NCBI GenBank assembly: GCA_000310025.1
Contig: FN648187.1
Span: 314,560-341,256, forward strand
Source: Ectocarpus siliculosus
Taxonomy: Eukaryota > Sar > Phaeophyceae > Ectocarpales > Ectocarpaceae
Length of the DNA: 26,697 bases
Direction of reading: 5' to 3'
The notes beneath the pieces were generated by a model. It was not told the origin of the DNA. It made no database searches and saw nothing but the letters and a program-made list of their open reading frames with translations. The translations under genes were made by a program, and so were the position numbers. This document shows, piece after piece, positions 6,218 through 19,304 of this stretch; position 1 is the first letter of the stretch; each line of letters opens with the position of its first letter.

Positions 6218-6514
6218 TGTTATGGAGGAACAGAGAAACAAAAGAGGGAAGGGAGCAAGTTCGTTGCTCCTGGCTTCGGGTACTCACAGTTGTTGTTTGA
6301 TCTCTTGTTTTAGCCTTCTTAGACCAGGTCCGCTCAGCGCCCACTCGGAGAGTGAGGGAGCGGGGCTGGGATCTTGATCTTCCTTCAAGCTACTTCAGTA
6401 TCCCTCAACGTCGCCAAATATCCATATCCAAAGAAAATTCAAATATCCAATAAGCGCTCATACAACGCTCATGAAACGTTCGTACAATGCAAATACACTA
6501 GTTGCTCCATTACA
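6218..6514 (-). repeat. 3' LTR of the retrotransposon
   Basis: 297 bp, starting TGTTATGG and ending CCATTACA on the plus strand. It matches 19007-19304 except for 5 substitutions and one missing A. It contains a 7-bp inverted repeat GGAGCAA...TTGCTCC and three tandem 11-bp-spaced copies of an AACGCTCAT-type unit near the plus-strand right end. The upper boundary is set by loss of similarity to the other LTR beyond 6514. Confidence 0.96.
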
Positions 6515-6528
6515 TTAGCCCACCCTGG
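6515..6528 (-). promoter_or_regulatory. Candidate polypurine tract (plus-strand DNA primer)
   Basis: On the element strand AGGGTGGGCTAA abuts the TGT start of the 3' LTR. It is purine-rich but imperfect compared with typical AGGGGGAG-like tracts. Position is the main support. Confidence 0.35.
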
Positions 6529-6901
6529 GAAGTCGTAGATGCAGATGCTTTATCTTCAATCCAATACTCAACCTCAAGTAAAGATCGAAGATGCGACTTT
6601 CCAAATCAGACAAAAATAAGATAAAATAAAAGCAACTAGGGTCGGAGAAAATAGTTCATCCCCGACAAATACTCAAAACCATCCCCACACCACACAGTGA
6701 TGACTACTGAGAATCACATCGCCAACGACGGAACCAGTCTGAATCAAAACGGGGTTCGGTCGCGTTGGGCACGCAAAGGTCGGGGTGACTATTGCAACAA
6801 TAGAAGAAGCTCACACCACCCAAACACGCGCTAGCGTACCACTGCGTACGATGCAGAACAAAACACAAAAAAACATGTAGCGGCCCGTAGGCGGCATGAT
6901 A
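6515..6901 (-). other. 3' untranslated part of the retrotransposon
   Basis: Between the TGA of the last pol ORF (6902-6904) and the 3' LTR. No coding potential is seen. Beside the LTR, the element strand reads CCCAGGGTGGGCTAA, the only purine-rich stretch in position to be a polypurine tract. Confidence 0.6.
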
Positions 6902-8190
6902 TCAAAGCACAGTTCCAGATGGGGCAACAGCCAGCTGTGCCACAACGCCTGGTGTTCGCGACGTAACGCCATCATCCGTGGAAGGGTTGGTCAAACCACG
7001 AGTACGGTGTTTTTGCAAGCACCAAGAACCACAAGGAGCATCCAAAACCGTGGAGTAACTATACTCCGGGAGAGAAAGCTTTCGAGGGCCGGGGGTGTCC
7101 AAAAATCGAACAATGTACAGGCCTGTTACGAAACTACTAATCTGCCCAAGCCACAAAAGTCCATCCAAAGCTTTGTACCAAATGTGGGCTCCGACAGGCA
7201 AAACAGAAACAGAGAAGTGAGCCAACCAAGTGTCACCCGAAACCAACTCGTACCCGGGAGCAATGAAACGTTCGGCCTGATTCCGAGCAAGTTCTCGGTT
7301 GGCCGAAGCTATCCGAGCATTACGATAAGCTCGGTTTCCTTGTACGCGCAGACTAGCGTTACCAGACCAGTACAGCAGAATGTGTTTTCTGTATTCCTGC
7401 AAATCAGACTCCCTTTCCCACGACGGTGTCAACAAACCCATCCAATGAGTCAGGTACAAGACGGCTACCACACCACCGCGTCCACGTACAATTTGGTGTC
7501 CTGAAATATTCTCAACATCCAGACGACTAGACTCCGCTAAAATATCATCAGCAGTCAAATTATACGGGGGAGACTTGTTTCTATGCGAGTGCAAAACATA
7601 TTTCGACAGATTGGCCGGCATATACTTAGGCAGGCCATCCGTGTCGTATGGGGTGGTACACGGTTTACACCGCAAGACTGAGACACGGTTGCGGGATTCT
7701 GGTCCCAGCATGTCTGACGGCAAGTCCAAGTATAGAAGTTTGCGCTCCACAGGTTTCCTATCCGGTGAATCCTCCGCTTTGGCCGGGCCAAGGGCAAGGA
7801 TCTTATTCGGTCCGGTGTAGTTGAGCGAAAGCTCCGCTTTGAGCACCAAATCATCGGTGTGTTTCCGCACCCCCTGCCGAATAGTAGCGGCGGAGTTGTA
7901 GACCCAAGCCCAACCACCAACTTCGTACTTCGGGATCTGACGCAGACCGTCCAACAGAGCAGAGTTCCGAAGTTCGACACGCGACACCGTAATCGCATGT
8001 TGTTCCCGCACCAACGCGTAAGCTCGTCTCTGGCGTTCCACCGCAAGATTGCAGAAAGCGAGCTGGTCTCGATCCAAACTTTGATGGCCACCCACGCTAG
8101 GGTGGTCCAAAATAGAAAGCGGGAGACGGGGCAACCGTCCAATATGCACTTCATTTGGCGCCAAACCTGTGGCGGCGTTTACCGGTTGTT
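6902..8190 (-). CDS. Integrase C-terminus, chromodomain and Tudor-like module (end of pol)
   Basis: This ORF continues the integrase after a 1-nt loss near 8182. It runs in a new frame from VNAATGLAPNEVHIG to TGA at 6902. It has a GPY/F-like segment (NYTGPNKILALGP, about 7785-7834). A chromodomain (about 7367-7522) contains VRGRGG, the aromatic and Trp positions of LTHWMG, and SWERESDL. The region at about 7013-7195 reads as a small beta-barrel reader: WYKALDGLLWLGQI followed by YIVRFLDTPGP, like Tudor or Agenet domains. Chromodomains of this class steer integration to modified histones; the second reader is my inference. The C-terminal ~30 residues are unremarkable. The original start is not in this ORF; translation depends on the upstream integrase frame. 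Confidence 0.85.
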
Positions 8191-8937
8191 GTATGCAAAC
8201 TCGACATGGGGAAGATGGACGTCCCAATCGTCCTGACGCTCATTGACCACAATAGCAAGCATTTGAGCCATGGTGTGGTTAACACGCTCCGCCCCACCGT
8301 TAGTTTGGGGGTGATAGGAACTGGTGGTGACTTTCTTGATCTTCATCAGCTCGTAAATAGCCATGGACAACTTGCAAAACTGCATACCGTTATCCGAAAA
8401 AAGAGTCACCGGACAACCCCACAACGCCATGTAGCGGTTGACGAAAATGTTAGCAGTTCCCTCAGCGGTAAATTCCGCCTTGGTAGAGGCATACATATCC
8501 GCCCGTCGACTGAAACGGTCCGTAAACAAAAGTATATATGCATTCCCACGGGACGTGACCGGCAATGGCCCAAAAAAATCGACCCTCACTACAATACCCG
8601 GCCCATTGGGGAGGGGCAGAGTGAGCGTAGGCCAGCGATACGTTTGCCGGGAAGTCTTGCGCGCTTGGCAAATTAAACAGTGCCGAAGCCACCAACGAAC
8701 GGACAAGTCCATCCCAATCCTCCAGAAAAATCGCTCCAACATACGTAAAGTCCGAGCGGTGCCCAGGTGAAAAGACGCGGTGGCGTGACATGCTTGTAGG
8801 ACCCAAGGTCGCAACAGCATAGGCACGTATATGCGCGGAGTCTTCGAAGGCGGGAGGCGAGTGATACGCCCGCCCGAACTACCGAGAGGCAGTGGGGCAG
8901 AATTTCGCACCAACAATCGCGTACCATCGTCTCGTGT
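8179..8937 (-). CDS. Integrase: HHCC zinc finger and DDE catalytic core
   Basis: The frame is open from 8994 to a TAA at 8179; real coding starts near 8937, where the linker frame is left. The zinc-binding part has His, His (ACHATASFH), then CLICQ with the two Cys (about 8668-8787). The core has Asp in VRVDFFGPLP (about 8578), Asp in LFSDNGMQF (about 8394), and Glu in HPQTNGGAERVN (about 8289), with the last two 35 residues apart. All three catalytic acids are present. The ORF stops at HVEFAYNN because one base is missing; the family continues with S/P-VNAATG, found in the next frame. It acts in nuclear insertion of the element's cDNA. Confidence 0.92.
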   Translation of the reverse strand, partial: TRDDGTRLLVRNSAPLPLGSSGGRITRLPPSKTPRIYVPMLLRPWVLQACHATASFHLGTARTLRMLERFFWRIGMDLSVRWWLRHCLICQARKTSRQTYRWPTLTLPLPNGPGIVVRVDFFGPLPVTSRGNAYILLFTDRFSRRADMYASTKAEFTAEGTANIFVNRYMALWGCPVTLFSDNGMQFCKLSMAIYELMKIKKVTTSSYHPQTNGGAERVNHTMAQMLAIVVNERQDDWDVHLPHVEFAYNNR

Positions 8938-9895
8938 GCAGGCATGTTTTAGATGCGAGGGCGACAACATCAGACAACGCCGGCCGTCGCGCACAGGGCA
9001 AGCAATCCCAGAATGTATCCGGCAAAACCGCCGGGGATCCCAAAGACAAAAAATGTATAGCCGCTACACACTCACTTTCTGACAGCTGTTCTCGGGCCCA
9101 ATCGGCATGCGAGAATGTATGCACACAGTCGCGGAGGTGAGCTTCCTCAGCGGCCGTCGGCGGCACCACGGGAGCCGCAGGGCTAGTACCCGCGGGCGAC
9201 AACACTGGCGGCGTGGGCGCCGCGAGCGGCGGTGGCGCCGGGGTGGCGGCAGCAGGCGCGGGCGGCGGCGGCGGCGGCAATTCAGCCGGCGCCGAAGAAG
9301 GCAGCGGGCCAGAAGTAGGGCTACCCACGGCTCTCGTAGACCGCGCGACACCGCTCGACCGGGCCGGCGTTCGAGGAGGCCGCGGCGTTCTGGGCACCAC
9401 AACGGCCCGTGGTTGTTTCGGAAAATAATTGGGACGGCTGTGAGCCATGCCCGAGGCCGAATTCGTTCTCGCCCGAGTACGAGAAGAAATCAGAGGGCCA
9501 CGCGAAAGCGACAGGGCAGCTGAGGAGGTGCCGACGGCGGACGAGGGAGCGACGTCTGGCTCCGCAGAAACGGAAGCCGGAGGAGGTCCATCGGGCACAG
9601 AACTCTCGGGGGCTGCATCGCAAACGACAGCGAAAACACCAGGAGGCGAAAATTTCGACGAGTCAACTACGGAGGAGGGCGACGGAGCCGGCAGGACCAT
9701 TTGTGGCCCAAAACGGCGGAAATCCCCAAAGTCATCCTCCGTCAAAGGCGCGTGTGCCAACGCGTCTCGTTGATCGTCAATGTCGAGCCCACCCAAGCCG
9801 ATGTTCGGCGTCGAACTAGAGTGATAACTCCGTCCGCACGCACGAATGAGATAAACGCCCGCGGCGTCATCGACTGCGATACTGGTGTCACCGTG
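8879..9895 (-). CDS. Pro/Ala-rich linker between RNase H and integrase
   Basis: A separate frame, open from 10021 to 8879, that carries the sense sequence from about 9895 to 8935. It begins GDTSIAVDDAAGVYLIRACG, passes through Ser/Pro/Ala-rich tracts (poly-Pro near 9260-9285, PAPPPLAAPTPPV), and ends with a structured-looking part containing ADWAREQLSESECVAAIHFL. The frame then shifts by +1 into the integrase near 8935. Beyond ~9895 the ORF is only a shadow of RNase H. Linkers of over 300 residues are unusual here; most Ty3/gypsy elements have far less. No enzyme motif is recognised. Confidence 0.6.
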   Translation of the reverse strand, partial: HGDTSIAVDDAAGVYLIRACGRSYHSSSTPNIGLGGLDIDDQRDALAHAPLTEDDFGDFRRFGPQMVLPAPSPSSVVDSSKFSPPGVFAVVCDAAPESSVPDGPPPASVSAEPDVAPSSAVGTSSAALSLSRGPLISSRTRARTNSASGMAHSRPNYFPKQPRAVVVPRTPRPPRTPARSSGVARSTRAVGSPTSGPLPSSAPAELPPPPPPAPAAATPAPPPLAAPTPPVLSPAGTSPAAPVVPPTAAEEAHLRDCVHTFSHADWAREQLSESECVAAIHFLSLGSPAVLPDTFWDCLPCARRPALSDVVALASKTCLHTRRWYAIVGAKFCPTASR

Positions 9896-10330
9896 TCGCC
9901 GGCAAGGGCAACCGCGAAAGAAAATCTGCATTGGCGTTGGCAGTGCCTTTGCGGTAGACAAGGGTGTAATTGAACGAGGAAAGGAACTCGAGCCAACGTT
10001 GGACGCGGGCGTTGTGTTCACCCACCTTGATGATGCTCTCCAAAGCCTTGTGATCCGAATAAATCAGAAAGTGCGTAGACCAAAAATAACCGCGTAGGGG
10101 TTTGATTGCCCACACGATACTTCCAGCCTCCAAGTGGATCACTGTCCAATTGCGCTCGGATTCGAGCGTAGCGCGGCGAACGAACAGAATGGGGCGGACG
10201 GAACCATCGGCCTGTTCCTGTTCAAGGGCCGCACCAAAACCATCCACACAGGCGTCACAGCAAAGCCGGAGAGGGCGGCTGCCATCCGCGACAGCGTCCC
10301 AATCCGGGAAAGCCAAACCGGAGGTTCGGA
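9888..10330 (-). CDS. RNase H domain of pol
   Basis: In a different frame from RT. The domain opens near GLAFPDWDAVADG and ends ADFLSRLPLPATR, stop at 9888. Catalytic acids are visible: Asp in CCDACVDGFGAAL, Glu in VIHLEAGSIVWA, Asp in LIYSDHKALE, and Asp in ANADFLSR. The aromatic/basic VQRWLEFLSSFNYTLVYRKG matches the family's conserved end. The join with RT near 10319 requires one missing base. The job is to degrade the RNA strand of the RNA-DNA hybrid during cDNA synthesis. Confidence 0.9.
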
Positions 10331-13306
10331 CAATTTCGCCAAGAGTTCTTTGACAGTATCCGCCATAGCCGGCGTAAAACAAAACTTCGCGTCCTTACGC
10401 AAAAGGTCTGTGAGTGGTTTCACGCGCATGGCCATACCCTTGATGAATTTCCGGTAATACGAAAGCCCACCCAGCAAAGAACGCAGCTTTTTGACGTTGT
10501 TAGGCAGCGGAATTTTTGTGAGGGCTTCGACCTTAACGGCAAGAGGACTAACACCCGCAGGGGAGATGGTGTGACCTAAATAAACAGCCTCCTTAGAGCC
10601 GACGCGACTCTTGAAAGGAGCAAGCTTGAGGTTGAACTTGCGCAAACGCTCCAAAAATAACCGTATGTTGGCGACATGGTGGATGGGGTCGGCGTCAAAC
10701 ACAATCACATCGTCCAGGTATGCAAGCACATGGTCCAGACCTTTAACCACTTCGTTGATGACCATGCTGAACCACGACGGTGCCACGGAGCTTCCCTGAG
10801 GCATACGGAGCCACTCGAAAAGTTGCGTGGGCGTACAAAACGCCGTAAGCTGAACCGTGTCCTCTTCGACGGTGGTCTGGTGGAAAGCGGAGTTAAGATC
10901 GAAAATGGAAAACACCTTGCCCTTGTGCAGGGAATCGATGATGTGGTCAACTCGCGGCTGCGGTTGTTGACCAAGGCTGCACAATTTGTAAAGCTTTTCG
11001 TAGTTCACGGTCAAACGCAGATTGCCGTCCTTTTTAGGCATGACAACCAGAGGGCTCGCCCACGGCGATTGCGAGTGCTGAATAAGACCGGCAGCAAGGT
11101 ATTGATCGAGAATTGCGTCGACCTTTTTCTCCACCAGAGGGTTGAGCCTATAGGGACGCGAGGCCAACGGTTTCGTGCCCGGGGGCACTTCCAAACGAAA
11201 CGGTTTCACGGAACAGCAACCGAAATCGGACGGTGACCGCGAAAACACATCCGAAAAGTCACACAGCACATCCGCCAGGCTGTTGATGGCTTCTGGGGTC
11301 CAACCCGAGTCATGTAAATCAAAAGTGACATCGTGCAAATGTGCAGGCAAACGTTGCCACAACTCGCGAAAACTCACTCGCTGCCCTTCTGAGAGGCGTT
11401 CCAACAGGTCCGGTGGCGGCGGTTTCGGCGGCAGTGAGGCCGCGGGAGAGTCCGAGATCTCCGGATCCGCAACCGGGATGTTTGAATGCAAATAATTCAC
11501 GCGAGACGGCGGCCCATCCTCGGAACGGGCTGGCGGCGGAGGGTCACTCAACCCAACGCCCTCGGCCGTCTGCGGTGTAGGATCAATTGACGCAAGCGGA
11601 ATCTGCACAAGTGGGGCAGTCACCACTCCAAGCACCTCACCTGGCTCCAACTCGGCGCACCCTGTCAATGGGATGTGTTGAGCCCCGTCCGAAACAAACG
11701 CGTCCGACGCCGAGAGGGCGCCGTGTTTCGGTAAAAACGTGACAAGATAGTTGCCGGTGAGAGCGGGAGTGCCAGAGTTGCGAACGAGGTTCACCCTCGT
11801 CAAAGTGGGTTTATCGGAAAGGGAGACACCCTTCCTGCCGGCGTACCGCAGGAAGTAAGATGCCCCGGGGGCGGAGGGTCCAGCGACATACACGGAAGCT
11901 CCCGCCGCAAAATCCGATGACAGAGAAAGTTTCTCCATAATGCGTCCACCCGCCGACCGCGTGGGCAAAGTAGTGGACAAACGAGAGTTAAAACGCATCC
12001 AACTATCACGTCCAAGAAGGAGGGCGTGACCCATGGCGGCAGCTGGGACAACATACACCCACACCGCTAACGAAGCAGTGGCACTTTCACCATAAAAAAA
12101 TTGAACGGACAGCCGCACGGATGAGGTGGTTTCAAGAGCATTGCCAGAGCCAAAACCACCCCACTGCCGAACGGGCACCGAACGACGTGTGTGGACAGAC
12201 GCAGCTCCTGACGCCTCCATGGCTTCAAGAAAAGCATCACTAATGAAAGATGAAGGTGAGCCCGAGTCCAAAAGGGCTACACCAGGCGCTGTACACACGG
12301 CTCCGGTACCACTATGCACACCGACTCGCGTCGTAGAGGTATCACAATCTACTAAAACATCACCGCTCACCAAATCTGGGCCGTGTTCCGCCAACAGCGG
12401 CGGTGGGGAAGCGGCGGCTTCGCGAAAAGCAGCAGAGGCAATGTGCAGCACCTGTTTCGAGTGGTCCGCGGGCGTGTTGGCTGGCACGTCCAGCGGGCCA
12501 CGCGCGTCCTCGGGCGAGGAATCATTGGCCGAAGAGTCCTCACCCGGGGGCGCAATTTCGTGGATAGTGGAACACACGGGGGCAGGTTGCCCCGAGTGTT
12601 CAGGGCGTAAAGGCTTATCGGGTTCGACCGGGCGCACACGCAGAAGCGTGCGCGTCGCAACAAGCGCTTTGCCCAAGAGGTTTTTACCAGTCCACTTGGA
12701 GGGCGACGGCGCACGCGGATCGAAGGCATCAACACCAATGCCCCACAATCCGTCATAAGGACTGGCCTCCGCTATCTGTCTATTACCCGTAGCCAACAAA
12801 CGTTCACGCGCGTCAGCATTTTGGGGCGAATTTTGCATACAAAAGCGAAAAGACAACATCCTCGCGCCGGAGCTCCCATAGAGCATGGTCAAAACCGCGT
12901 GGCTTCCGACCAAGGGACTTGTGTTCTCTCGGGTCGAGGTAGCCATGATTTTGGCATAAGCGGCATCATCGCCGAAAATGCGGGCTTTCTCCGCCGTCAT
13001 GAACTGTTCGCCGTACACGTGGCGAATGCCGTGAACCGAGAACTCACAGGGCGTCCAGTTAGACAGAAAGGACGGCGGTTTCCAAAACAGGAAAACCTCA
13101 TCGTTATAGTATTCCTGACAACCGTCAAAAACAGGGGCCTGCCGCGCGGGTGCGCTTACCTTCCCCGAAGAAATATCATCAAGAGAAATGGCACCGGCAA
13201 CCGGCAGGACAATCTGGGTGCCGCCCGAAGGCGCCGGATTGTGGGTTACGAGGAGAGGCAGGCAAAAGCGGTGAACCAGCCGCAGAAGCGTGCGAAACCA
13301 AGCGGT
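10139..13306 (-). CDS. pol: Pol ORF: NADAR-like domain, aspartic protease, reverse transcriptase
   Basis: The frame is open from 13306 (after TAG at 13307-13309) to 10139. The 959-residue version starts at a GTG at 13018, but family similarity begins upstream near 13099, so there is no real start here; entry is probably by frameshift from the Gag extension. Order: NADAR-like domain (about 13099-12634), acidic/Pro linker, protease with LLDSGSPSSFIS (Asp near 12268) and HALLLGRDSW, a long linker, then RT (about 11197-10320). RT has FDLNSAFHQ (Asp near 10900), MPQGSSVAPSWF and YLDD (10709-10720). The usual VDYRKL is VNYEKL here. After SEPP (about 10319) the remaining ~59 residues are out of frame; RNase H continues in another frame. 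Confidence 0.92.
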   Translation of the reverse strand, partial: TAWFRTLLRLVHRFCLPLLVTHNPAPSGGTQIVLPVAGAISLDDISSGKVSAPARQAPVFDGCQEYYNDEVFLFWKPPSFLSNWTPCEFSVHGIRHVYGEQFMTAEKARIFGDDAAYAKIMATSTRENTSPLVGSHAVLTMLYGSSGARMLSFRFCMQNSPQNADARERLLATGNRQIAEASPYDGLWGIGVDAFDPRAPSPSKWTGKNLLGKALVATRTLLRVRPVEPDKPLRPEHSGQPAPVCSTIHEIAPPGEDSSANDSSPEDARGPLDVPANTPADHSKQVLHIASAAFREAAASPPPLLAEHGPDLVSGDVLVDCDTSTTRVGVHSGTGAVCTAPGVALLDSGSPSSFISDAFLEAMEASGAASVHTRRSVPVRQWGGFGSGNALETTSSVRLSVQFFYGESATASLAVWVYVVPAAAMGHALLLGRDSWMRFNSRLSTTLPTRSAGGRIMEKLSLSSDFAAGASVYVAGPSAPGASYFLRYAGRKGVSLSDKPTLTRVNLVRNSGTPALTGNYLVTFLPKHGALSASDAFVSDGAQHIPLTGCAELEPGEVLGVVTAPLVQIPLASIDPTPQTAEGVGLSDPPPPARSEDGPPSRVNYLHSNIPVADPEISDSPAASLPPKPPPPDLLERLSEGQRVSFRELWQRLPAHLHDVTFDLHDSGWTPEAINSLADVLCDFSDVFSRSPSDFGCCSVKPFRLEVPPGTKPLASRPYRLNPLVEKKVDAILDQYLAAGLIQHSQSPWASPLVVMPKKDGNLRLTVNYEKLYKLCSLGQQPQPRVDHIIDSLHKGKVFSIFDLNSAFHQTTVEEDTVQLTAFCTPTQLFEWLRMPQGSSVAPSWFSMVINEVVKGLDHVLAYLDDVIVFDADPIHHVANIRLFLERLRKFNLKLAPFKSRVGSKEAVYLGHTISPAGVSPLAVKVEALTKIPLPNNVKKLRSLLGGLSYYRKFIKGMAMRVKPLTDLLRKDAKFCFTPAMADTVKELLAKLSEPPVWLSRIGTLSRMAAALSGFAVTPVWMVLVRPLNRNRPMVPSAPFCSFAALRSNPSAIGQ
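12634..13099 (-). CDS. NADAR/YbiA-like domain inside pol, internally frameshifted
   Basis: The N-terminal part has EVFLFW, PPSFLSNWTPCEFSV and YGEQFMTAEKARIFGD. The C-terminal part has ARERLLATGN, EASPYDGLWGIG and WTGKNLLGKALV. These match the block order of the NADAR (YbiA-like) family. Between them the ORF reads family-unlike sequence. Another frame of the same strand instead gives SLGRKPRGFDHALWELRRED and YAKFA, the expected middle block. A 2-base excess in a GA repeat (12925-12930) and a 1-base excess in a G4 run (12823-12826, plus strand) explain both shifts and restore the frame. Known family members are N-glycosidases that act on riboflavin intermediates or remove ADP-ribose from guanine. 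This copy is probably inactive; what the domain does in a retroelement is unknown. Confidence 0.85.
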
Positions 13307-13958
13307 CTACGCGGGCGTTCTCGCCCAAAACGTCGGCGTAAGCCCGTTCATTAAAAGCGGCCTTCATCGCGGGCGCTCGACCAACATGGTTAGCGGCCGC
13401 GGGAGGCTCGGGACCGCTATTTCGTGACAAAGAACATGAACCTTCCGATTTGGGGAAACCGTTTCTTGCGCTCGGCAACGGCGGTGCAGTCAGCACCGTG
13501 CGACGTTGGTGCTCCGTAGAGGATCGTCGCGAGGGGTCCGGAGGGGGCGCGGTGGGTACAAGCGTACTCGAGCCACCGCGGCGGGACTGCGGCTGTCCCG
13601 AAGGTCCCTGTGCTCCAGCGTGGTTGACGAGGCCACCCGGAGCCGCCGAAACGGTGGGAGAAGCCGAAGCCATGCCTCCGGGGGGCGTAGACATCGGGGC
13701 GAGCGTCCGTGAGACACCCGAAGTCTGGTCGGCCCCTCGCCCACACCACAAGACTGTATTCGGCGCCGACGAGTCACGTCGGTCATCCAAAACAGGCTGT
13801 GATGAGGCGTGGGGCGACATCTGAGAAATAAAAGGTTGGGAAACTAACATAGGCGAACCCGAAGGCGTCTGTGTGATACGAACGTCTTGGGAACTAGTCG
13901 TACAGCGCACACCCGGTGCTGTTGACGGCGATGTGTGCAAAAGGCCGTCACCGGCGTG
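13179..13958 (-). CDS. Gag-Pol junction extension, Ser/Pro-rich, in the Gag frame
   Basis: This open stretch directly follows the Gag TGA (13959-13961) in the same frame and ends at a stop at 13179. It is Ser/Pro/Gly-rich (SPSTAPGVRCTTSSQ, SGVSRTLAPMSTPPGG) and ends with NERAYADVLGENARVDRLVSHA. It overlaps the pol frame over 13179-13306, so a +1 shift would be needed to enter the NADAR-like part. Readthrough of the TGA (followed by CAC) is possible, but ordinary decay is equally possible. No domain is recognised. Confidence 0.5.
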   Translation of the reverse strand, partial: HAGDGLLHTSPSTAPGVRCTTSSQDVRITQTPSGSPMLVSQPFISQMSPHASSQPVLDDRRDSSAPNTVLWCGRGADQTSGVSRTLAPMSTPPGGMASASPTVSAAPGGLVNHAGAQGPSGQPQSRRGGSSTLVPTAPPPDPSRRSSTEHQRRTVLTAPPLPSARNGFPKSEGSCSLSRNSGPEPPAAANHVGRAPAMKAAFNERAYADVLGENARVDRLVSHASAAGSPLLPASPRNPQSGAFGRHPDCPAGCRCHFS

Positions 13959-15704
13959 TCAGTTACCCCGCGAGTGAGGGGTTCCGGAACTCCGAGCGCA
14001 CGGAGTTCCAGGTACGGCGGCGGGCGCCGGGGTGGCGGCGGCTCCTACAGCTGGCGCCGGAGGTGGTGTGTGTGTACTTGAGTTTCGTTTCCCAGAGCGG
14101 CGGCCGTCGCCCTGTGTATGGCCGCTGCTCTTACCCGGGCCATTTTTATTGTGTACACGCGGGTGGTGAGACTTCATGCGGCTTTGCCAACGTTGAAAAA
14201 CCTGAACGCTATCAGCATGCGAAGCAATGGCCGGGTTTAAGAGGCCGGTGTAATTGGTGAAAGCATACGGGCAGGTTTTGAGACTGTGGCCCGCCTGCCC
14301 ACAGTTGAGACATTGGCCAGAAAATCGCCGCAGAGCTTGCGCTCGGTCGGCAGGGGTCAACAGCGGTGTAAACAAAGGGGGGTCCATCTTAGCCATACTT
14401 GCCACAACGCTGTACACAAAGCCGTAGTGACCACGCAACGGCCAGCAGTCGTAGTCCTGCTCGAATGGACATGTGTTATCGGACGGCACAGGGTCGATGG
14501 CCATCACCCCGGCGGGAAATTGTGTTCCCGGCGACCACGCGGACGGCTGCAGCGGCGGCGGCGGTGGCGGCCGCTGCTGCCCCACGGTCGCAGTCATGGC
14601 TCGTGTGGGCGCCGATGAAAACCCAGAGGTGACAGTGGTATAATAACGGTCGCCGTTGCAGGCGGGCGAGTGTTTTAGTGCTTCCTCCGACGACAAAGCA
14701 TCCCAAAGCTCATCCTGTTCACTAAACACCACGTTGTGGAGAATCTTATCTTTCAACGGCAAAGACGAGAGAACATTCGGGTACTGCTCCAACAAAGCGT
14801 CCCGAAGCGCACGCTGGACCATGCGCAGATCCGGCGCGAAAGCCCTATGCGAGGCCAACTCCGACATTGCTAACGCCTTAAACTTCGTAACGAATTTGCT
14901 GTACGGCGTGCCGTTGGGCACACCAAAATCCTGCAGCTTGTCGATGCCCCGGTCGAAACCTTTCGGTTCCCACTCATCCGCGAGCAGTTTGAGCAGCCGA
15001 CGGTATGCCGAAGGCCCCGACTTGTCCTTCGTCTCCAAGAAACGTTTCACCTGAGAAAACGAAGAATCCACCAATTCGCGGGTTGCGGCATTGGCGCCTT
15101 GAGGATTCGAAATGGCCATGAGGACACGCTTGTGGAAGGGAGCATACCATCCAGCCACCCATGAGGGCGACTTGATGGTCTGCTTGCCGGAGGGATCAGC
15201 GGCCGACAGGATTTCAGCCAACACACTTTCGGTCGAACGAGCGAAGGCAGAAAATTCTGCCGAGGGAAGCGGCACTACCGCATACAATTCGTTCACTTTA
15301 AGCTTGCCGTATCCTTTGCGCACGCTGAGGGCGTACGCCTCTGCGGCGGCAACGGCGTTTGCATCAAGCTGTGCCTGCGCGGTGCGTGCACCGGCAGACG
15401 ACAGGGGCAGTGCCCGGTCATCAGCGGAATCGCTTGCGGCCGCGTGCACGGCCGGCAGCGGTGGCCTCGCTACCGACACCGCGATAGCCGAGACCGGTGG
15501 TTCCTGTGGCAAAACACGTTGGGAGGGCGTCGGTACCACCCCAGAAACCTGTGTCGTCTCCGTTTTCACAACGGAGGCGGGGGGCGGTACCTCTGTTTTC
15601 ACAGCGGCAAATGATGTATGCGATGGCAAAGCGGAGGCTACTGACGGTGGCTCTGACTTTACTAACGGCACTGGCTGCTGTGGCATCACCGGCGGCTGCG
15701 GCAC
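13959..15704 (-). CDS. gag: Gag C-terminal half: capsid-like region and CCHC zinc knuckle
   Basis: 581 residues from a GTG at 15704 to TGA at 13959. The first ~90 residues are Pro-rich and continue the repeat of the preceding ORF; the GTG is probably not a true start. The middle (about 15360-14650) is a mixed, mostly helical stretch (GYGKLKVNELYAVVPLP, YRRLLKLLADEWEPKGFD, VQRALRDALLEQYP), in the place and size expected of capsid. The nucleocapsid knuckle CLNCGQAGHSLKTC (CX2CX4HX4C) is at 14271-14312 and is followed by a basic tail. Gag builds the virus-like particle and packages the element RNA. It is split from the preceding ORF by a single extra G (15704-15706). Confidence 0.88.
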   Translation of the reverse strand: MPQPPVMPQQPVPLVKSEPPSVASALPSHTSFAAVKTEVPPPASVVKTETTQVSGVVPTPSQRVLPQEPPVSAIAVSVARPPLPAVHAAASDSADDRALPLSSAGARTAQAQLDANAVAAAEAYALSVRKGYGKLKVNELYAVVPLPSAEFSAFARSTESVLAEILSAADPSGKQTIKSPSWVAGWYAPFHKRVLMAISNPQGANAATRELVDSSFSQVKRFLETKDKSGPSAYRRLLKLLADEWEPKGFDRGIDKLQDFGVPNGTPYSKFVTKFKALAMSELASHRAFAPDLRMVQRALRDALLEQYPNVLSSLPLKDKILHNVVFSEQDELWDALSSEEALKHSPACNGDRYYTTVTSGFSSAPTRAMTATVGQQRPPPPPPLQPSAWSPGTQFPAGVMAIDPVPSDNTCPFEQDYDCWPLRGHYGFVYSVVASMAKMDPPLFTPLLTPADRAQALRRFSGQCLNCGQAGHSLKTCPYAFTNYTGLLNPAIASHADSVQVFQRWQSRMKSHHPRVHNKNGPGKSSGHTQGDGRRSGKRNSSTHTPPPAPAVGAAATPAPAAVPGTPCARSSGTPHSRGN

Positions 15705-17214
15705 CCGGCGGCACCGGCGGCACCGGCGGTACCGGCGGCTGTAGCACCGACGGCGGCGGCACCGGCGGCGGCGGCACCGGCGGCGGCGGCGGCAGCTGCT
15801 GCTGCGGCGGCCGCTGCGGCACCGGCGGCCTCGGCACCGGTGGCGGCGGCACCGACGACTGCGGCACCGGTGGCTGCGGCACCGGCGGCTGCGGTACCTG
15901 CGGCATCGGCACCGGCGGCAACGGCACCGACGGCTGCGGCACCGGCTGCGGCGGCATCTTCAACGGCGGTACCGGCGGCGACGGCACCGACAGCGGCGAC
16001 ACCGGCGACGGCAGTCTCGACGGCGGCACGCCAAAAGCCGCTACCGACGGCGACGCCGTCGCCGACGGTTGCCGCTGCTGGGGAAAACTCGACAAAGACA
16101 TGCGATGCAATAGCTGTCGTGCACGTTCTAACTCAGGCTCGGGGTGGTCAACGATGGGTTGGATCGCTTTGACCGACGTTTCCGCGATGTGAGGCGGCAA
16201 AGTACTGACCGGGGGCATGGCGGCCGCAGACATTTGGGCAGAAGCGACAGTAATCGGGTCCTGCGGCATCGTCACCGGCCACGGGTGACCCCCAGGACCC
16301 ATGAACGGCGGCTGCAACGGGTACGGATTTCCAAGCGCATCTACGGCCCACGGCTGCTGAAAAAACGGCACATTTTGTCCTGCGATACCATACTGTACTT
16401 GCCTGCTATTAGTCGGACCATAGTAGGAGAGATGAGTGTGCCCGCCACGGTCAGAAGCCTCCCCCCCCCCGGCATTCCGGCGGCTATCTCCCCCATCATT
16501 CCGGTGGCTACCCCCGCCGGCACCCCGATGAGCATCCGTGCGTCCGCGGGAGTCATGTCCTCGCGAACGGCCTGCATCCTGCCTGAGGTATTTCTGTGTA
16601 TGCGGGCGGTCGTGAGTACGAGAGGAATGGTAGGACCCAGCAGACGCAGAAGTGCCCCACCCGGAAGGTTCCGAAGGTTGCCCCCCCATCTGAGAGCGGC
16701 GACCCCCCGAACCCCCCGAACCAGACCTCGAACGTGCAGAAGTGTCTACATGCGCCCTCGAACGCGCGGAGATGCCCAAATCCGCCGCCTGCACACGACG
16801 CAGATCAACCACCAGCCGCTCAAGCCGCCGACGTTTCGTGGACGACCAAACGGGGCGGTAAAGCAGACTTCCAATCGTTTCATTACGCTGAGAAACGAGA
16901 TCGACCGAGATCCTGTACACTAGCGCAGGGCCAGCATCCTTAGCTTCAGACGTCGCAAAAATGCTGGTGTTGACGAACTCGATTACTCCGTCAATGTTGA
17001 GACCTAGAAGTCTAGTGTCGAGAGAACTAGCCTCGAAATCACCTGCATCAGAAGACGATGAAGACGAAGAAGACGAGCTGGACGAAGAGGTGCTCGAAGA
17101 GGACGAGCTGGACGAGTTTTTGCGAGATTTCCGCCGTTTCCTGACGTGTCCCACTGGTCCACCGGCCGAGATGGTAGTGATCACGGAGGAGCTCCGACTA
17201 CGAGTCCTCCCTCT
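15704..17214 (-). CDS. Gag middle part: poly-Ser, RS/RG-rich and Pro-rich
   Basis: The frame is open from 17214 (after TGA at 17215-17217) and has sense down to about 15704. The ORF runs on to 15421 but is out of register there. It starts with a basic KRRKSRKN motif, then about 30 Ser (17040-17110). A mixed segment follows (LNIDGVIEFVNTSIF, VYRISVDLVSQRNETIGSLL), then an Arg/Ser/Gly-rich stretch with RGG-like spacing and a PPVPQPPVP-type repeat (15705-16040). The basic and RG-rich parts suggest RNA binding, which is inference. It overlaps the previous ORF by 34 bp (-1 relation) and could start by frameshift or reinitiation at GTGA. There is no matching domain family in memory. Confidence 0.7.
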
Positions 17215-18242
17215 TCAACAGGCATGGTGTTGGTCGCAACCGCAGCAGCATCACTGTCAAAACCAGTCGTATCGGCCGTAGCCACAGCAGCAGAGGCTAC
17301 TGCAGCAGCAGCAGCAGCAACAGCATTAACAGGCGCAGCATCTACACCAGTCGCAACAGGCGCGGCAACAGATACAGCATTTGCAACAGCAGACGCGTCA
17401 GCTACACCTGTCGCAACAGAAGCGGCAACAGGTGCAGCAGCAGCAACAGGCGCGGACGCTACAGCAGAGGTTACAGCGGCAGAAGCCGCAGCGGCAGCTG
17501 CAACAGGAGCTGCAACAGCAGCAGCAGGGGCAGCGGCGGCAGCAGCAGAAACTGCAACGGTAACGTCAGACGCGTGATCAACCGCAGAAAGTTCCGGGAA
17601 ATTTCCTGCGGCTTGCAAACGTGCCAACTGCTTTTCGAGATCACGGGCCGTCCCAGAAGCAGATGCCATCCATTCCGTGTGCTCACGCTGTGCCTCCGCG
17701 TCTTCTGCCAACAACGCGGTGTAACGCTGAGCCTCCAGCCGTTCCTCTTCTTCCCGTGCCTTACGCAGACGCTGCGCTCTTTCACGCGCAGCCGCCTCTG
17801 CCAAGGCGATTGCCTGTGCATGACGAGCATGGTGCTCGCGTGCTTTCTGCTGATCAGTCTCTCGGCGAGACGCACGTGCCTCGAGCTCAGCGGTTGAGAG
17901 CCGAGGGACAGCCACAGCAGCGGTCTCCTAAGAGACAGCAGCAAGCTGACGGGGGATGCCGCCGGAGCCAGTACCCTTACTGGCGCCAGGCGACACCGCG
18001 GTACTCGTACTCGGTGTTCCGAGTTGACCCCCAGCGGAAGAAGACAAAGTAGGTGTGCCGCCACCATCATCTGTCCCCCTAGACGCCGGGAGCGTGCCTG
18101 CAGCAGGAGAGCTCCCCTGCTCTCCTGCCGTGACCGGGCTGACAGGCGTGTCAGCCTGAAGGTCTTCCTTCAGTTTCGCCATCGCAGCGGGATCTGCGGT
18201 GGTGTCGAGATCAACCGACATGCATGCACCCTGTGTTGCCAT
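17181..18242 (-). CDS. Gag N-terminal part, interrupted by an in-frame TAG
   Basis: The first in-frame ATG is at 18242 (MATQGACMSVDLD). The frame runs to TAG at 17928-17930, then continues without break to TGA at 17181. The first part is Ser/Gly/Thr-rich. After the TAG comes a long charged helix, likely a coiled coil (LEARASRRETDQQKAREHHA through EEERLEAQRY). Then follow ~120 residues of Ala/Val-rich repeat coded by GCA/GCT-type triplets (about 17230-17560). Sense composition on both sides of the TAG shows a single original frame, so the stop is a mutation or a recoded codon. I recognise no family. Confidence 0.65.
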
Positions 18243-18904
18243 GGGTGACACATGTGTGTTGTCCCGAGGGGAAAAACAGACGACAGAACAGCAGCGGCAT
18301 CATCCGCAATAGGAAAAGAGGACGGCAATACAACCTCATCAGCGGGCGAGGCACTGATCGAGTGACTGGTCGAGACCCAATCGTGGAGAGAGTGCCGGCC
18401 CTCGCCATCCGAACTCTTCAAAGCGGCGAGGGCAAAAGGCATGAGCTGATCTTGAAAACACGAAATGCACGATGCAGCAGAAACACAATCTAGAAAGAAA
18501 AAATCGTGAGGCAAATGCGAAGAGCGAAATTTTTCGTCCGACAAAGTGGCCGTGCGCGGCCTTCTCTTCGATCGACCGGCCTTGACAAAACCGCGGTTCA
18601 GCAGACGTAACACATGGTCCGAAACCGGTGCCGGCAGAATGTCCTCCGGCCACAAATCGGTGGAGACAAGCCCCCGATCGAAATGCTCACAAACGGCACC
18701 TTTTTCGCGAATTTCTGAAATCCCTGTGAACGATTGTGCAAACGAGCGCAACCCACTACAACCAGACGGCAGCAAATCATGCCAGCAAAGCGGCCATTCA
18801 GCAGCCTGTCGCCGCCACGCGGAGGGGTAGCCAAGCGCGTGAGAAGCGTAAGGCTTTCCCCCGAAAGCAGGCAGAAAGGTGTCGTCTTGGGAGCAAAGGG
18901 GCAT
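18170..18904 (-). CDS. Leader ORF between PBS and Gag, unknown product
   Basis: The frame is open from 18958 to 18170; the first in-frame ATG is at 18904 (MPLCSQDDTFLPAF), giving about 245 residues. Composition is balanced and not low complexity (for example HLPHDFFFLDCVSAASC), unlike neighbouring Gag. It overlaps the Gag start in another frame. Other ATGs lie upstream between the PBS and this one, so usage is unclear. It could be an accessory ORF, a relic, or chance in a GC-rich leader. No motif is recognised. Confidence 0.4.
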   Translation of the reverse strand: MPLCSQDDTFLPAFGGKPYASHALGYPSAWRRQAAEWPLCWHDLLPSGCSGLRSFAQSFTGISEIREKGAVCEHFDRGLVSTDLWPEDILPAPVSDHVLRLLNRGFVKAGRSKRRPRTATLSDEKFRSSHLPHDFFFLDCVSAASCISCFQDQLMPFALAALKSSDGEGRHSLHDWVSTSHSISASPADEVVLPSSFPIADDAAAVLSSVFPLGTTHMCHPWQHRVHACRLISTPPQIPLRWRN

Positions 18905-18973
18905 GTCTTTTGTAACATGCACGTCATGCACAAGGTCGAAGCATTCATGGATGGATTCCTATTGTGATTTCAC

Positions 18974-19003
18974 GCGCAGGTTCGAGTCCTGCAGACGACG
19001 CCA
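18974..19003 (-). other. Primer-binding site, complementary to a serine-type tRNA 3' end
   Basis: On the element strand it starts TGGCGTCGTCTGCAGG, 3 nt after the 5' LTR. The plus strand reads as the 3' end of a tRNA: T-stem GCAGG, loop TTCGAGT, T-stem CCTGC, acceptor strand AGACGAC, discriminator G, CCA (19001-19003). The GCGCAGG...CCTGC arm and the G discriminator resemble eukaryotic tRNA-Ser. The match appears to run through the whole T-arm, about 28-30 nt, longer than the usual 8-18. Confidence 0.85.
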
Positions 19004-19006
19004 CAA

Positions 19007-19304
19007 TGTTATGGAGGAACAGAGAAACAAAAGAGGGAAGGGAGCAAGTTCGTTGCTCCTGGCTTCGGGTACTCACAGTTGTTGTTCGATCTCTTGTTTT
19101 AGCCTTCTTAGACCAGGTCCGCTCAGCGCCCACTCGGAGAGTGAGGGAGCGGGGCTGGGATTTTGATCTTCCTTCAAGCTACTTCAATACCCCTCAACGT
19201 CGCCAAATATCCATATCCAAAGAAAATTCAAAATATCCAATAAGCGCTCATACAACGCTCATGAAACGCTCGTACAATGCAAATACACTAGTTGCTCCAT
19301 TACA
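19007..19304 (-). repeat. 5' LTR of the retrotransposon
   Basis: 298 bp, TGTTATGG...CCATTACA on the plus strand. Since the element reads leftward, this is the 5' LTR and should hold promoter and transcript start. The element strand has tandem GAGCGTT-type units spaced 11 bp, an ATTGG (inverted CCAAT) and AT-rich GATATTTTGAA as promoter-like sequence, and a GGAGCAA...TTGCTCC hairpin near the PBS end. Promoter calls are tentative. Confidence 0.96.

Follow-up and report, generated by a model that had tools for sequence, protein, structure and literature searches.

A Ty3/gypsy element with a NADAR domain ahead of its protease

We analyzed a stretch of 26,697 nucleotides from the alga Ectocarpus siliculosus (GCA_000310025.1, contig FN648187.1, positions 314,560 to 341,256; hereafter the window), whose minus strand carries a long terminal repeat (LTR) element of 13,087 bases (6218-19304) with a NADAR domain at the N-terminus of its Pol region. 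Read from the 5' LTR, a Gag-like frame (13962-15704) is followed by a frame that stays open over 13306-10142 and encodes, in order, the NADAR domain (12638-13087), an aspartic protease with the motif LLDSGS (12221-12334; RVP_2, 14.1 bits, below the cut-off of 20.3, the motif lying within the open frame) and a reverse transcriptase (RT; 10565-11038; RVT_1, 89.8 bits). RNase H (9972-10280; RT_RNaseH, 97.9 bits), integrase (8308-8826) and a possible chromodomain (7370-7516; Chromo, 14.7 bits, below the cut-off of 25.1) come next, all three in frames other than that of NADAR, protease and RT. The integrase comprises an H2C2 zinc finger (8826-8650; Integrase_H2C2, 48.5 bits) and a catalytic core (8607-8308; rve, 28.1 bits, slightly below the cut-off of 32.6). 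The order of protease, RT, RNase H and integrase between two LTRs is that of Ty3/gypsy elements, with the protease and rve scores of this copy below cut-off. An earlier sequence-only reading had placed a NADAR-like segment between Gag and the LLDSGS protease of such an element, and both the context and the placement proved right.

The identity of the domain, which that reading had based on four short sequence blocks, was confirmed by profile comparison: PF08719 (cut-off 35.1) matched with 86.1 bits (E 4e-24) when the query was the whole frame (13303-10142) and with 91.4 bits (E 1e-25) when it was 13120-12641, and NCBIfam TIGR02464 (riboflavin intermediates N-glycosidase) matched with 80.9 bits, above its cut-off of 73.7. 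The four blocks do occur in NADAR order within 12634-13099 in one minus-strand frame; the segment as a whole is less tidy, in that about 35 codons inside it (approximately 12915-12810, judged by eye) can be read as NADAR solely in another frame. Because of this stretch the window copy, at 90.6 bits in a whole-genome scan, scores well below in-frame copies elsewhere, which reach 169 bits. Five of the eight ADP-ribose-contacting residues are in frame in the window copy, including the glutamate of EASPYD at the E125 position, and the other three fall within the out-of-frame stretch. The window copy is thus a broken family member. Directly ahead of the NADAR domain, 29 of 30 elements (L001-L030) carry a motif of the form FD...EY (FDGCQEY in the window, approximately 13120-13090), which is possibly part of the fold or close to a protease cut site.

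A scan of the genome (189.5 Mb, 492 contigs), in which 150 of 230 candidates were scored, puts the number of NADAR matches at 150 or more. Among the 30 best scorers, which are not a random sample, a protease region lay downstream of NADAR in any frame in 30/30, and an RT in 20/20 of those for which longer sequence was taken. A single uninterrupted frame ran from NADAR to the protease motif in 20 of the 30 elements and from NADAR to the YxDD motif of RT in 8 of the 20 long loci. Of six weaker or odd matches picked by hand, five also had the protease region, the exception being L134 (see below). The domain itself was unbroken in 28 of the 30 copies (two were dropped for stops), and these 28 split into five families of 9, 11, 4, 2 and 2 copies, with 54-67% identity between families and synonymous sites near saturation. 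Three single long proteins from other records (P0068-P0070) have the architecture of the window element, and two matches named Ectocarpus (P0001 and P0002) showed 49 and 52% identity. In many copies NADAR is fused in frame ahead of protease and RT, and the arrangement is common to five families. The possibility that a fragment of a host gene had been inserted just once, into a single element, a doubt raised with the sequence-only reading and one to which the broken state of the window copy would lend itself, is refuted by the genome-wide matches, by the same domain order in the five families and by P0068-P0070: related elements do carry the domain, and we give this explanation practically no credence.

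The fusion is not new, a possibility that the sequence-only reading had left open. A study published in 2025 (Genome Biol; PMC12477816) reports NADAR in an Ectocarpus Gypsy lineage, for example in Gypsy-12_Ec32, states that all families of the lineage carry it, and treats it in a short passage that contains no functional work. This appears to be the lineage of the window element: both have NADAR at the Pol N-terminus, the published lineage has a putative chromodomain after the integrase where the window element has its sub-threshold Chromo match, and we found no essential difference between the two, which were matched by description. Besides this study, no report of NADAR in transposable elements stood out among the matches listed in a literature search for which most subscription papers lay outside coverage, and a search combining macro domain, retrotransposon, ADP-ribose and gypsy returned none.

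Selection on the domain and its predicted pocket

In the copies examined the NADAR domain is under purifying selection. Minimum spanning trees gave 64.5 synonymous vs 57.5 nonsynonymous changes, corresponding to a ratio of nonsynonymous to synonymous rates of about 0.32 (p 1e-9), a ratio biased downwards by the choice of copies with a high profile score and no stops. This bias counts against the result, as does the lack of significance when families B and D are taken separately (p 0.08 and 0.23).

The residues E43, K50, R79, W89, R93, E125, D130 and W133, numbered and assigned roles by alignment to a Phytophthora NADAR (PMC11543638), were unchanged in 28/28 in-frame family copies. In all 28 the residue at the E125 position is Glu, not Asp or His, which is the mark of the YbiA subfamily (PMC11125620). 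A structure model was made for the family copy L043, not for the window copy (predicted local distance difference test, pLDDT, 88.6). Its top match was 8bau, a NADAR with ADP-ribose (E 5e-10; template modelling, TM, score 0.81), its second was YbiA, 2b3w (E 1e-6; TM 0.77), and beyond these two no structure matched significantly. The family NADAR is probably catalytic.

Comparison with characterized proteins places the domain as follows. The Phytophthora nicotianae NADAR (8bau) has the same fold, the same ADP-ribose pocket residues and the YbiA-type Glu, but neither it nor the DarT1-linked NADAR (PMC11543638) is part of a retroelement Pol, as the domain studied here is. E. coli YbiA shares the fold and the TIGR02464 profile with the element's domain, but is a standalone protein, known for riboflavin intermediates and for activity on ADP-ribosylated guanine (G-ADPr) in vitro (PMC11125620). 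NADAR domains in the ORF1 of an oyster Tx1 long interspersed nuclear element (LINE; PMC12477816) and in RNA-virus polyproteins (PMC9503650) likewise sit in a retroelement or beside a viral polymerase; going by the statements of those papers, the element classes and positions differ from ours.

Origin of the domain and other RT-bearing carriers

The exception among the hand-picked loci, L134 (G000:C24:330700-333000), has a NADAR domain split by at least one intron, and the 2.3 kb examined gave no match to the protease or RT of the lineage. We read L134 as probably the cell's own gene for NADAR, perhaps closely related to the domain in the elements; such an intron-split gene, tentatively related in this way, goes beyond what is in print. 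A NADAR protein that Ectocarpus induces under stress, Esi0017_0056 (391 aa, two introns), has been described and, according to the title of the report, gave higher salt and heat tolerance in Arabidopsis (PMC7922944); our guess is that it is the counterpart of L134. That report does not discuss how Esi0017_0056 relates to retroelement domains, and the word 'transposon' occurs 0 times in its main text.

A tree of 68 NADARs, with 11 short rows left out, joined seven copies of the genome, P0068-P0070 and six further fragments into one clade with support of 96/94, which fell to 68/86 and 80/90 in two trees to which the cell's own gene had been added. Family A, to which the window element belongs, grouped with family C both in the NADAR tree (99/90, with P0013) and in the RT tree (97/100), and much of the remaining branching of the RT tree was unresolved. 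The simplest reading, we infer, is a single NADAR capture before the five families split; the grouping of family E with P0070 speaks against it in part, being firm in the RT tree (97/99) and weak in the NADAR tree (89/0).

As to the source of the domain, the gypsy NADARs, the cell's own gene and P0012 made up an 18-row clade (91/81 in one tree, 68/84 in another), and a topology holding the elements and the own gene alone together was not rejected (p 0.36). These trees are suggestive of a derivation from the host gene; PMC12477816 proposes transfer from bacteria, whereas the present trees are compatible with an origin from a cellular gene of the alga. A viral donor was considered and rejected: among the best 80 of 132 relatives in viral contigs, the best NADAR open reading frame never exceeded 400 aa and the RT of the lineage had no match, and none of 64 distinct viral domains in the tree fell inside the gypsy clade (Shimodaira-Hasegawa-like approximate likelihood ratio test, SH-aLRT, 92).

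Two further RT-bearing proteins carry NADAR in other contexts, which is also new beyond print. P0071 is a gypsy Pol with the order protease, RT, RNase H, Macro, NADAR, integrase. Its residues 1076-1382 hold a weak Macro match and NADAR in tandem, that is, two ADP-ribose-handling domains placed unlike the NADAR of the window lineage; the Macro match scored 19.2 bits in the whole protein (cut-off 22) and 22.4 bits for the piece scanned alone, and a PDB sequence search with this piece gave no match. In P0072 (2839 aa) NADAR lies upstream of RT (residues 898-1055 and 1392-1520). By eye, P0072 starts like a cytosine DNA methylase and ends like a tyrosine recombinase, and Pfam confirms neither piece. 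Both NADARs fell outside the gypsy clade, and approximately unbiased (AU) tests did not reject one clade with the gypsy NADARs for P0071 (p 0.448) or for P0072 (p 0.141), so that independent capture in the two proteins is not proven; the position of NADAR in P0071 and its very distant RT favor it. The Tx1 LINE of oyster reported in PMC12477816 adds a further element class. The presence of NADAR in other RT-bearing proteins, once beside a Macro domain, points towards a possible ADP-ribosylation of retroelement nucleic acid.

A candidate role in clearing ADP-ribose from element nucleic acid

The reading we propose is that a vertically inherited, YbiA-type NADAR at the Pol N-terminus of one Ty3/gypsy lineage clears G-ADPr from the RNA or cDNA of the element, and we regard it as about an even call. 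Pol would bring NADAR into the particle, where the protease would cut it free; in the particle or in the cytosol it would hydrolyze the N-glycosidic bond between ADP-ribose and the guanines of element RNA or cDNA, and lesions that block reverse transcription would thereby be removed. Delivered together with RT, it could clear adducts from template or product. By analogy, such an enzyme might guard cDNA in the manner of the retroviral dUTPase, a small enzyme directed at nucleotides, which in some retroviruses lies at the border of Gag and protease and protects cDNA. The placement of the two is similar, but their fold and chemistry are unrelated.

Published biochemistry bears on the substrate. 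All NADARs tested in one study take ADP-ribose off guanosine in RNA, the macrodomain and ARH-type enzymes tested there do not, and NADARs are the only hydrolases found to do so (PMC11833690); NADAR acts on DNA as well (PMC11125620). This biochemistry makes RNA no less likely a substrate than DNA, for which the sequence-only reading had suggested ADP-ribose removal, a role that would fit the conserved pocket residues. Several points weigh against our proposal, and its weak point is the writer of the modification. A YbiA-type NADAR that is active on G-ADPr in vitro failed to protect cells against DarT1 (PMC11125620). A genome profile search, in which exons were matched singly and intron-split genes can escape, gave no match to DarT and none to KptA/Tpt1, only four PARP fragments (the PARP search matched 0/14 control genomes) and only one Macro fragment.

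Rather than modified nucleic acid, the domain might clear small ADP-ribose derivatives, such as signals of the host or products left over from RNA repair. This has been argued for phage NADARs (PMC9503650) and agrees with the intact ADP-ribose pocket of the family copies; the same paper, however, argues that polymerase-linked NADARs of RNA-virus polyproteins target macromolecules, and the element's NADAR is embedded comparably, which makes the explanation rather unlikely to us. A house-cleaning N-glycosidase of the YbiA/TIGR02464 kind, acting on damaged nucleotides or riboflavin intermediates so that the nucleotide pool stays usable by RT, would agree with the TIGR02464 score and the YbiA-type Glu. 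We think it unlikely: the positions conserved in the family are the ones through which 8bau binds ADP-ribose, and 8bau precedes YbiA as the closest fold, a weak argument as YbiA also works on G-ADPr in vitro. The domain could, lastly, have no catalytic role: it might, for instance, bind RNA or protein as a module within Pol, or be a spacer ahead of the protease. Its location at the Gag-Pol border would suit such a function, and SNA-3 of C. elegans employs NADAR domains in trans-splicing by a chemistry that is unknown (PMC9303266), but the constancy of 8/8 pocket residues across all in-frame copies, despite the low identity between families, makes it very unlikely.

A wider extension of the proposal, which we consider doubtful, is that unrelated retroelements repeatedly captured NADAR, once with Macro, in response to ADP-ribosylation of guanine in their RNA or cDNA, which would be a widespread eukaryotic barrier against retrotransposition, and that the element of the alga took the host gene; host and element would then share one de-ADP-ribosylating enzyme family. 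The conserved pocket and the selection on the domain offer a good handle on whether eukaryotes ADP-ribosylate retroelement nucleic acid. Should G-ADPr in RNA or DNA prove to be a substrate of the domain, Ectocarpus would allow a direct test for such a host modification.

As for the remaining features of the window element, this copy is broken at several places, some of which could be assembly errors. The Gag-like frame was named by its position and by a CCHC zinc knuckle motif read by eye (14315-14268), a weak one with scores of 12.3 (zf-CCHC) and 13.1 bits (zf-CCHC_4), both below cut-off. The 5' LTR (19007-19304, 298 nt, minus strand, ends TG...CA) pairs with the 3' LTR (6218-6514, 297 nt). 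Over 297 aligned bases the two show 5 mismatches and a single gap of 1 base, from which the insertion is probably fairly young. Comparison of the flanks revealed no target site duplication, the bases beside the two LTRs not agreeing; it was either lost in this broken copy or affected by recombination. Next to the 5' LTR, the primer binding site region (18967-19006) begins with TGG followed by about 26 bases that we read as tRNA complement, an interpretation to which no tRNA gene was matched. So read, it complements about 29 nt of a tRNA, comprising the 3' strand of the acceptor and the whole T arm, where primer binding sites are usually 18 nt or fewer.
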